NCBI GenBank assembly: GCA_029862085.1
Contig: JAOTXZ010000001.1
Location: forward strand, 1-64,000
Length of the DNA: 64,000 nt
Source: Candidatus Nitrosopumilus sp.
Lineage (GTDB): Archaea > Thermoproteota > Nitrososphaeria > Nitrososphaerales > Nitrosopumilaceae
Direction: 5' to 3'
In this document: positions 31,050 through 43,099 of the stretch, piece by piece
Numbering within the stretch: the stretch's first letter is position 1
Layout of the letters: each line of letters starts with the position of its first letter
The notes under the pieces: model-generated
The model's database searches: none
Seen by the model: the letters and a program-made list of their open reading frames with translations, nothing else
What the model was told of the DNA's origin: nothing
Program-made: the position numbers and the translations under genes

Positions 31050-31472
31050 ATGGCAAAATTCAACAAAATCCTTGTACCACTTGATGGTTCTAATAACGCA
31101 AATAGAGGATTAGATCGAGCTATTGAAATTGCAAAAGAAAGCAATGCCGAAATAACTGGATTTTATGTATTTCATTTGCCACTTTTAGCAGGCATTAAAT
31201 ATACTCAAAAAATGAAAGACGAGGCTCAGGAAAAAGCCGTCAAAGCGATTGGACCTGCAATGAAAAAGGCTCAAAAAGCAGGAGCATCTTTCAAGTACAA
31301 AACTGGTGGTGGACATACAGGGTCTGAGATTGTAAAATTTGCTCAAAAGGGAAAATATGATATGATCGTTATTGGAGCTAGAGGAGTGGGCGGTGCTAAA
31401 GAAACATTCCTTGGAAGTACCTCTAACTATGTAATGCATAAAACAAAGATTCCTGTTTTAGTGGTAAAGTAA
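31050..31472 (+). CDS. Universal stress protein (UspA family)
   Basis: The 140-residue protein starts MAKFNKILVPLDGSNNANRGL and ends GARGVGGAKETFLGSTSNYVMHKTKIPVLVVK, with the G-x2-G and GS/T elements of ATP-binding Usp proteins. It is a distinct paralogue of the protein at 27995. It is divergent from the second four-CBS gene, with a leaderless-type promoter. Confidence 0.94.
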   Translation: MAKFNKILVPLDGSNNANRGLDRAIEIAKESNAEITGFYVFHLPLLAGIKYTQKMKDEAQEKAVKAIGPAMKKAQKAGASFKYKTGGGHTGSEIVKFAQKGKYDMIVIGARGVGGAKETFLGSTSNYVMHKTKIPVLVVK

Positions 31473-32873: not shown

Positions 32874-34625
32874 TTGGCAATATCTTTTGCATTAGATAAA
32901 AAATTAATTCTTTTAGTAATGAGCGTTTCAATTATTGCCTTATCAATCACTGCATTTCTGAGTTTTAATTATGCAGAGCAGATTCTAAAAGAAAGAACTG
33001 GCGAACAACTATTTGGAGAATCCAGCATTCGAGGAGACACAATAAGGATAATGTTTGAATCACGAATTGAACAAAATCAGATTTTGGCAACTGATCCTAT
33101 GATTCAAATTCTAGTCACAGAGTTAAACAAAACTCCAGAAGAGGAACTTCATGACACAAAAGAAGGAAAACGTAGAGACTTCTTAACACAAATTCAAGCA
33201 TTTCAAACACTTATTGGATTTTCTATTGGTTTTGAAGATGTAAAAATTATTGGAAAGAATGGAGATCTTTTCTTTTCTCTCGGAAGAACCGAGAACGATA
33301 AATTTCTAACCGATCCTTTATTCCAGAAAGGTTTACAATCTTCATTTGTAGACTTTGAGCCATTTCAAGATAGTAAAAAGATGATTGTAGTATCCCCAAT
33401 TTTTGCAGAAGATAGTAAAATAGGAGATGAGGCCATTGGAGTTTTAATATCTAGAATGAGAACTGCTGCGATAGATAGTATTTTACTAAATAGAAGTGGT
33501 CTTGGAGAATCCGGAGAAATCTATATTGTTAATAATAATTTTTTGATGTTATCTGAATCTCGATTTATTGAAAATACAATTTTTAAACAAAAAGTGGATA
33601 CCCTTGGGGTTCAAAAATGTTTTAATGAAGGAATAGACTATGAAGGATTGTATCCCGACTATCGAGGAATTTTAATTTACGGTTCATCTTACTGTGCAAA
33701 TGATTTGGGATTTGTATTGCTTGCAGAAATTGATGAAGCTGAAACCATTCAACCAATTCTAATTCTGCAAGAAAGGATATTCCAAACGGGTCTAGTAATT
33801 ACTACCGGAATGGCAATTATAGCATTTATTATTTCAAGAACACTCTCGAAGCCATTAATTAAATTGAAAAATGCTGCAAATACTATTGCAAAGGGCAATT
33901 TTGAAGTAAGAACCAAGATTACAACGACAGATGAAATAGGCGAACTCTCACAGGCCTTTGATTCTATGGCTCAAAAACTCCAAGAATCATTACTGGAAAT
34001 TAAAGAAAAGGAGGACGTAATTAAACAACAAGAAGACATTCTTTTACAGTTTTCTGATTACAGTGAAAAATACTGTGTTTGTATGATAGACATTATTAAT
34101 TCCACAAAAATTACTGCTCAACTATCAGATTCACAAACAAGCGAATTCTATAGAATTTTCCTAAACTCCTTAGCAATAATAGTTCGAAATTTTGGGGGAA
34201 TAGTAATAAAAAATATTGGCGATGCTTTATTATTTTATTTTCCTATCCTGCAAGCAGAAAAAGAAATTACTATGACCAAATGCCTAAATTGTTGTTTGAC
34301 TTTAGGTGAATCCCATAAAGATTTAGAAACAAAATTACAAAATGAAAACCTTCCTAGTGTTGATTATAGAGTTAGTGCTACTTTTGGAATGGTAAGAATA
34401 GCTAGAACCTCCACATCATCGGTTAATGATATTTTTGGATCCACTGTTAATAGATGTGCAAAAATAAACAGAACTGCCCCTGCAAATGGATTAATTATAG
34501 GAGAAGACTTCTATGAAAATGCAAAAAATCTTGATGGTTTTGAGTTTAAAAAAGTAGGTAGTGATATCGTTTCACCCGAACACGGTTTTGTCGGATATAT
34601 CGTTTCTAGAAAACAAAAAAAATAG
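32874..34625 (+). CDS. Transmembrane class III adenylate cyclase with extracytoplasmic sensor and HAMP
   Basis: The start is a TTG at 32874. The 583-residue protein has a transmembrane helix (~11-31), an extracytoplasmic sensor (~32-300, Cache-like by position), a second helix (~304-322), HAMP (~323-376), a short coiled coil and a class III cyclase domain (~395-560). Metal ligands Asp406 (MIDI) and Asp450 (NIGDALL) are present. Lys446 and Asp519 (NDIFG) form the adenine-selecting pair, which favours cAMP as product. Asn526 is kept, but the transition-state Arg four residues later is Lys530. Two PAIRED domains would form the active site in a dimer. Sensing of an outside ligand is inferred. Confidence 0.87.
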   Translation: MAISFALDKKLILLVMSVSIIALSITAFLSFNYAEQILKERTGEQLFGESSIRGDTIRIMFESRIEQNQILATDPMIQILVTELNKTPEEELHDTKEGKRRDFLTQIQAFQTLIGFSIGFEDVKIIGKNGDLFFSLGRTENDKFLTDPLFQKGLQSSFVDFEPFQDSKKMIVVSPIFAEDSKIGDEAIGVLISRMRTAAIDSILLNRSGLGESGEIYIVNNNFLMLSESRFIENTIFKQKVDTLGVQKCFNEGIDYEGLYPDYRGILIYGSSYCANDLGFVLLAEIDEAETIQPILILQERIFQTGLVITTGMAIIAFIISRTLSKPLIKLKNAANTIAKGNFEVRTKITTTDEIGELSQAFDSMAQKLQESLLEIKEKEDVIKQQEDILLQFSDYSEKYCVCMIDIINSTKITAQLSDSQTSEFYRIFLNSLAIIVRNFGGIVIKNIGDALLFYFPILQAEKEITMTKCLNCCLTLGESHKDLETKLQNENLPSVDYRVSATFGMVRIARTSTSSVNDIFGSTVNRCAKINRTAPANGLIIGEDFYENAKNLDGFEFKKVGSDIVSPEHGFVGYIVSRKQKK

Positions 34626-34665: not shown

Positions 34666-34992
34666 TTAAATTAAATCTGATGATTTTTGTTTTGTAGAAA
34701 TATCATAGGATTCTTCTACATTTGTGACAAAGATTTTTCCATCTCCCTTTTCACCAGTATGAGCAGTTTCCATAATAGCTTCTACGACAGAATCTAATTG
34801 TGAATCATTTACAACTGTAATAATTACATCAGTTGAATTAAATTCAATTTGTTTTCCTCCAATTTCAGGTCTATCTCCTGCCCCTTGTCCTAGAGACTCG
34901 ATCAAGGTAACACCACCTACCCCCTTATTTCTAATTGCAGTCACCACATTTCTTGAAATCTCACTTTGCACAACTGCTTCAATTCGTTTCAT
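34666..34992 (-). CDS. PII-family nitrogen regulatory protein
   Basis: The 108-residue protein has the PII fold: MKRIEAVVQSEISRNVVTAIRNKGVGGVTLIESLGQG, a T-loop region, and the B-loop/ATP site HTGEKGDGKIFVTNVEES. The Tyr that is uridylylated in bacterial GlnB is absent from the T-loop. PII proteins bind ATP, ADP and 2-oxoglutarate and control ammonium transporters or GS. The gene stands apart from the amt cluster, so its partner is not shown by context. Confidence 0.88.
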   Translation of the reverse strand: MKRIEAVVQSEISRNVVTAIRNKGVGGVTLIESLGQGAGDRPEIGGKQIEFNSTDVIITVVNDSQLDSVVEAIMETAHTGEKGDGKIFVTNVEESYDISTKQKSSDLI

Positions 34993-42011: not shown

Positions 42012-42147
42012 TAATTTTTGAAATTCAAACATCATTATTTTCTTAAAAATTGAATAAATTCCTAGTATAGGAAGAGAATATTACACTATCACAACTGATA
42101 ATTAGATAGTATAATAAATAACCAAAACCAAATTTTTGATCACCGAT

Positions 42148-42729
42148 ATGAAGAAAATCGAGGCGATAATAAAAAGATCGAGTTATACTCTAATTGCTGA
42201 AAAATTAAACACCATGGGATATACGATTATCGATAAACGAAATTTAGAGGACAATCCAATTTTTGATAAGCAAAGAGAATCTGAAACAAACGGAAAACTT
42301 AGTCTAAAAGCAATCCCTCTTTCAAAAATTGAGTTGGTTGTAACAGAAAAAGATGCTAGAAAAGTAATCGATCTTATTTCAAAAAAATCAGGTTTCAAAT
42401 CCAACAAGGTCGGAAAAATCTTTGTATCTGAAATGGAGGAAGTGGTAGAAATCAATACTCTTGAAAGTACTCAGGACTTGGAGCTTGACGAAATTAAAAT
42501 TGTACAAAAACCAAAAATCAAACGAAGTAGATTGGTTCCACTTCAGAAATACACCTTACTTCGCCTTCAAAATGTTTATGATGAAAACTATGAAACCCTA
42601 GTTTCAGATCATAGAATAAAATCATTTAGTGATTTTGTAAATCATTGTATTATGGGATATCTTCCCTCATTTGAAAAACAACTAAAACATCCTACAGTTG
42701 TATATGGAAATAATTTTAAAGAATTTTAG
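42148..42729 (+). CDS. PII-like protein with an additional C-terminal domain
   Basis: The start is ATG 42148 (MKKIEAIIKRSS). Residues 1-105 follow the PII pattern with a T-loop-like segment and the strand GKIFVSEMEEVVEI (PII: GKIFVxxxEExxxI). An extra ~85 residues follow: KRSRLVPLQKYTLLRLQNVYDENYETLVSDHRIKSF...NHCIMGYLP, mainly helical and not part of PII. Extended PII-like proteins can have a different partner from Amt. The gene sits tail-to-tail with a second PII gene, overlapping 4 bp. Confidence 0.78.
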   Translation: MKKIEAIIKRSSYTLIAEKLNTMGYTIIDKRNLEDNPIFDKQRESETNGKLSLKAIPLSKIELVVTEKDARKVIDLISKKSGFKSNKVGKIFVSEMEEVVEINTLESTQDLELDEIKIVQKPKIKRSRLVPLQKYTLLRLQNVYDENYETLVSDHRIKSFSDFVNHCIMGYLPSFEKQLKHPTVVYGNNFKEF

Positions 42730-43055
42730 ATTACTTCTTCTCCCTCATTCCCAGTCCCTATATCTATTGATCGAAGAACTGGTGAGACAAAGATTTTGCC
42801 TATGCTTGCTTTATTTTTTATGATATTAACCACCTGCTCTTCCTTACTTTCTGAAATAACTAACTCTATGACATATTTTTGACTGAACTGTGGTTGAAAT
42901 ATCGCACTCCCTTTTGAAGCATGAATTTCGGGGGGAGGTCTCTTTCCACGACCTCTTACTTTGCTTACGGTTAAGCCACCAATCTCAACTTTTTTTAATG
43001 CCTCGCTAATGGCCATTACATCATTATTTCCAAGAAAGGCTTCAATTTTTAACAT
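42726..43055 (-). CDS. PII-family nitrogen regulatory protein next to amt
   Basis: The 109-residue protein begins MLKIEAFLGNNDVMAISEALKKVEIGGLTVSKVRGRGK, the first PII strand-helix unit. The T-loop region (RPPPEIHASKGSAIFQPQFSQKY) is longer and unlike bacterial GlnK, and the strand IGKIFVSPVLRSIDI is the PII signature. The gene is divergent from amt, so it is the most probable direct regulator of that transporter. Confidence 0.87.
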   Translation of the reverse strand: MLKIEAFLGNNDVMAISEALKKVEIGGLTVSKVRGRGKRPPPEIHASKGSAIFQPQFSQKYVIELVISESKEEQVVNIIKNKASIGKIFVSPVLRSIDIGTGNEGEEVI

Positions 43056-43099
43056 TTGATAAATTTACAAGGTTTTTCACAAATAATAGTTTCAGATTT

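Follow-up and report, generated by a model that had tools for sequence, protein, structure and literature searches.

The stretch of DNA analyzed here, referred to as the window, comprises 64,000 nucleotides of a Candidatus Nitrosopumilus sp. contig (JAOTXZ010000001.1, positions 1 to 64,000). The open reading frame at 32874-34625 was confirmed to encode, in this order, a predicted dCache sensor, a transmembrane (TM) segment, a HAMP domain and a class III cyclase. The features of the gene, of its active site, and of a neighboring gene are as follows:

32874..34625, + strand: transmembrane sensor cyclase gene, a single open frame of 583 aa with a TTG start at 32874 and its stop at 34625
32898..32966, + strand: TM helix 1, about residues 9-31, a hydrophobic stretch that begins model helix 9-72
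33054..33719, + strand: putative extracytoplasmic sensor domain of the dCache_1 type (residues 61-282), in which Cys249 and Cys274 are invariant
33765..33833, + strand: TM helix 2, about residues 298-320, a hydrophobic stretch within model helix 288-339
33831..33986, + strand: HAMP domain, residues 320-371, from Pfam
34065..34601, + strand: class III cyclase catalytic domain, residues 398-576, from Pfam Guanylate_cyc, the AlphaFold2 model and a fold match
34089..34091, + strand: D406, metal-binding Asp 1, invariant in 53/53 aligned homologs
34209..34211, + strand: K446, adenine-type Lys, invariant in 53/53
34221..34223, + strand: D450, metal-binding Asp 2, invariant in 53/53
34428..34430, + strand: D519, adenine-type Asp, invariant in 53/53
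34449..34451, + strand: N526, transition-state Asn, in 52/53
34461..34463, + strand: K530, at the transition-state Arg position, in 53/53 of the first homologs and 25/25 full-length orthologs
34666..34992, − strand: PII (GlnB/GlnK-like) gene, convergent with the cyclase gene and ending 41 bp from it, candidate partner (P-II match, 2.1e-18)

Pfam matches were strongest for HAMP (residues 320-371, E 3.6e-15). The Guanylate_cyc match (PF00211, residues 398-576) is above gathering (28 bits vs. a cut-off of 21.9), and the dCache_1 match (residues 61-282, E 3.2e-10) scores 40.4 bits, just under the gathering score of 45; no named ligand motif was recognized in this domain. An AlphaFold2 model based on an alignment of 25 orthologs (mean pLDDT 82, pTM 0.52) shows long membrane-crossing helices, a folded extracytoplasmic domain formed by the dCache_1 region between both TM helices, and a class III fold. 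The catalytic domain is predicted to adopt that fold, and the cyclase part of the model matches solved cyclases with target TM of 0.7-0.83. Four cysteines (C249, C274, C403, and C528) are invariant in all 25 orthologs; the first two lie outside the membrane and may form a disulfide, and the other two lie near catalytic residues in sequence. An earlier note on this DNA had proposed a sensor-HAMP-class III cyclase layout in a thaumarchaeon. Both the layout and the thaumarchaeal origin are borne out. That note had also suggested a structure prediction of the dimer; the class III fold was recovered in a model of the single chain.

Orthologs share 42-88% identity across Nitrosopumilaceae, and 156 of the 250 genomes from this family have a cyclase match at E ≤ 1e-20, which excludes a chance origin of the frame. 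Named relatives include Nitrosopumilus, Nitrosarchaeum, Nitrosotenuis, Nitrosotalea, and Ca. Nitrosomaritimum; no phage relatives were found. L133 (Ca. Nitrosomaritimum khambatensis) and L015, the latter from the window's own genus, are equally identical to the query, which suggests that Ca. Nitrosomaritimum is that genus. Pairwise dN/dS for the whole gene is about 0.06-0.18, with constraint in all domains, and the gene is under purifying selection. The literature lists an adenylate/guanylate cyclase sensor for Ca. Nitrosotalea devanaterra (PMC4836417) and COG2114 for sponge thaumarchaea (PMC9289680). These carry the same general annotation as the window cyclase, and the passages concerned record presence only, without active-site or effector analysis.

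Alignment places the metal-binding residues at D406 and D450, the adenine pair at K446 and D519, and Lys530 where Arg is usual, in agreement with the earlier note. Motif spacings (K-D +4, D-N +7, N-R/K +4) are those of canonical class III enzymes. The usual transition-state pair is thus half retained, with Asn present and Arg replaced by Lys. K-type domains of ammonia-oxidizing archaea (AOA), about 160 of which have the Lys, follow the pattern D-K-D-D-N/S/T-K nearly throughout (L196, with Asn at the K530 position, is an exception), and the adenine K/D pair is retained in all of these cyclases. Three paralogs in the same genome also carry Lys at this position. Arg-type cyclases are present in the order and phylum as well (families f3, f4, f56, and f59), but on other branches. 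Because Lys is nearly fixed among the AOA K-types while Arg-types branch separately, we regard Lys530 as a lineage trait and not a lesion.

Precedent for Lys at this site comes from the crystallized Pycsar cyclases BcPycC (7R65) and AnPycC (8JSZ), in which alignments read N-x-AAK; that these enzymes carry it indicates that Lys is workable in the class III fold. Both are reported to be uridylate cyclases making cUMP (PMC11224242). The earlier note had raised the possibility that Lys530 means low activity or calls for compensation. The former is weakened by the fixation of Lys across a large AOA family and its occurrence in the two PycCs; as for the latter, no compensating Arg is conserved, and the candidate R533 was rejected as variable (16 of 25 orthologs). 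K530 is a shared catalytic variant, and the enzyme is probably active.

BcPycC and AnPycC resemble the window cyclase in this Lys, the metal Asps, and the Asn. They differ in lacking the adenine Lys (the K446 column holds Ala in BcPycC and Asp in AnPycC), in being soluble, and in being paired with a cyclic-nucleotide-gated effector, whereas the window protein has a membrane-receptor layout, an intact adenine pair, and no PycTM or PycTIR neighbor. The nearest solved sequences to the K-type profile are adenylate cyclases of the CyaC / CyaB type (1WC0, 3R5G), which share the fold, two metal Asps, adenine Lys, and Asn, but differ at position 530, which is Arg, and at the Asp519 position, which is Thr. 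Bacterial sensor-HAMP-cyclase receptors share the order of sensor, TM, HAMP, and cyclase; unlike them, the window cyclase is archaeal and of the Lys type, and no CRP-like receptor was found in Nitrosopumilaceae.

On a tree built from 91 catalytic domains, Lys is strongly clustered, with 6 changes as against 26 when shuffled. Most K-types fall into two supported AOA clades, CAKIN (41 rows, including the window protein) and AAKIQ (11 rows). A single origin was neither rejected nor demonstrated for the AOA K-types (p-AU 0.116) or for all K-types together with the PycCs (p-AU 0.378); the PycCs and one L208 row form long branches. One CAKIN-type cyclase (L176:645-1358) comes from a contig classified as Ca. 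Aenigmatarchaeota, reflecting either transfer or misbinning. Elsewhere in the window's own genome (L003/L005 on G000:C35), a soluble CAKIN cyclase stands beside a degenerate cyclase homolog that has lost the base Lys and Asn, kept the Arg, and carries the motif WGPG..ARR. The same pairing recurs at L164, L170, L171, L172, L177, L179, and L200, which suggests that the two form a two-gene unit.

The earlier note had reasoned from an active cyclase to cAMP signaling and had proposed looking for CRP/FNR-like proteins and phosphodiesterases. The cyclic-nucleotide-binding (CNB) domain PF00027 was found in none of the 250 Nitrosopumilaceae genomes (131 of high quality; controls were detected), and the window's own genome (a 79% complete assembly) gave no significant match (best E 0.29). 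Matches to PDEase_I (PF00233) were short and all under the cut-off. Since PF00027 was found nowhere in the family, one half of what that note had named as counting against it, the lack of a cAMP-binding protein, is borne out for canonical receptors only. The absence does not extend to all AOA, an idea that we rejected, as other families of the order have CNB domains (76 of 201 genomes sampled across the order). In family f3 it occurs as a fusion with a thioredoxin-reductase-like protein (L259, L261). Universal stress proteins (USPs) were also considered as cAMP receptors. The cAMP-binding mycobacterial USP requires Gly-10 (PMC11107214); the window USP (31050-31472) and other own-genome USPs have Pro (Cys in L250) at that position, aligned by motif, with seven own-genome USP loci giving no motif match, and this candidate is disfavored.

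For the receptor, the most promising candidate is a PII-type protein, though this is a lead and not proof. Adjacency of PII and cyclase is kept in genera g1, g5, and g11 and in one g17 genome. In five genomes of genus g15 (L119, L222-L225), a K-type cyclase carries a PII-like domain at its N-terminus, and the fusions that were read adjoin purE. The fused domain is under the Pfam gathering score and shares 35% identity with the second PII of the window (42729-43052; E 1e-22). At 42118-43064 the window has two PII-family genes besides the convergent one, one of them C-terminally extended, beside a putative ammonium transporter gene. Nitrososphaeraceae have K-type cyclases whose C-terminus is a response-regulator receiver domain (L101, L157, L174). 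Across these fusions, the K-type catalytic unit is joined to several input modules, and such modularity supports, without proving, a working enzyme. The cyanobacterial PII-like protein SbtB binds cAMP. The specific proposal that the PII protein of 34666-34992 regulates the cyclase or receives its signal, which is one version of the downstream part and not an alternative to the cyclase, is supported by this neighborhood, fusion, and precedent. We nevertheless think it rather unlikely, as the gene is convergent with the cyclase and not co-transcribed, most g14 loci lack an adjoining PII while retaining the other flanking genes, and the g15 fusion cyclase falls outside the CAKIN clade of the window protein.

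Taken together, we consider it probable that the window gene encodes a functional membrane receptor cyclase, that its product is most likely cAMP, and that this is received by something other than a canonical CNB-domain protein. In the mechanism that we infer, which extends from activity and product to the ligand, the dimer, and the partner downstream, the extracytoplasmic dCache domain would bind a small ligand, D406 and D450 would hold two metal ions, and K446 and D519 would read the base, predicted to be adenine. N526 would orient the ribose, and K530 would give the phosphates the positive charge that Arg supplies in textbook enzymes. The product would most likely be cAMP, acting through a receptor outside the canonical CNB-domain proteins, possibly of PII type. 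By known rules, a Lys/Asp pair in class III cyclases denotes ATP as substrate, and conversion of ATP to cAMP is our best guess because the AOA enzymes keep this pair, which BcPycC and AnPycC lack. Against this reading we count the PF00211 score of just 28 bits, the family-wide absence of canonical cNMP-binding domains (0/250 genomes), and the fact that known K-type enzymes make cUMP, so that the Lys might go together with another substrate.

A rival view is that the enzyme is active but has another main product, whether cGMP or, as in Pycsar, a pyrimidine cyclic nucleotide, and that it serves in signaling or defense. The transition-state Lys is common to BcPycC, AnPycC, and, by alignment, three plasmid cyclases adjoining annotated Pycsar effectors (two from Haloterrigena and one from Paenibacillus), although Arg is found instead in a Deinococcus relative and in nine further plasmid cyclases. 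The tree that unites all K-types was not rejected, and the window domain scores better with the PADLOC PycC models than with PF00211 (1.8e-13 vs. 1.9e-6). These models are not specific, however, since they also match Arg-type cyclases such as L060 (1e-19), and the adenine pair missing from the two PycCs is intact in the window protein. PycTM (PF18967) was found in 1 of 250 Nitrosopumilaceae genomes, where its cyclase has Gln at the K530 position, and the window locus has no defense context, with DnaJ, USP, PII, and cupredoxin as neighbors and no PycTM/PycTIR effector among them. We consider another main product unlikely. The single PycTM pair (L221:3582-4804, in G088) is Pycsar-like and lies near an ORF start repeated on both sides, so that it looks like a mobile insertion.

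It is also conceivable that the protein has almost no cyclase activity left and has been retained as a scaffold gated by ligand, signaling through protein contact (e.g., with PII) and not through a product. Such a role would fit the missing Arg, the lack of a CNB-domain receptor in Nitrosopumilaceae, and the PII adjacency and PII-like fusion. The remaining catalytic residues are nevertheless invariant or nearly so, including both metal Asps, for which a scaffold would have no use, and true degenerate homologs in the same genome (L005, L006) look different, having lost the base Lys and Asn. This makes the scaffold quite improbable, and a functional receptor cyclase producing cAMP remains our preferred reading.

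Archaea are said to have class III cyclases only rarely (PMC8646023). Several conserved ones are nonetheless present in AOA, a group that drives oceanic and soil nitrification. As Lys is fixed and shared among these enzymes, motif-based calls of Arg-less cyclases as inactive can be wrong. The lack of any canonical cyclic-nucleotide receptor found across Nitrosopumilaceae leaves a clear and testable gap, namely the reader of the signal. We tentatively propose, while regarding it as doubtful in full, that the class III cyclases of AOA include a separate Lys-type branch, with several members per small genome, adenine-specific and sharing the catalytic Lys of Pycsar, whose signal is read in Nitrosopumilaceae by a non-CNB receptor with PII-type nitrogen/energy sensors as partners. 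If true, some of the most abundant archaea would turn out to use a new second-messenger circuit.
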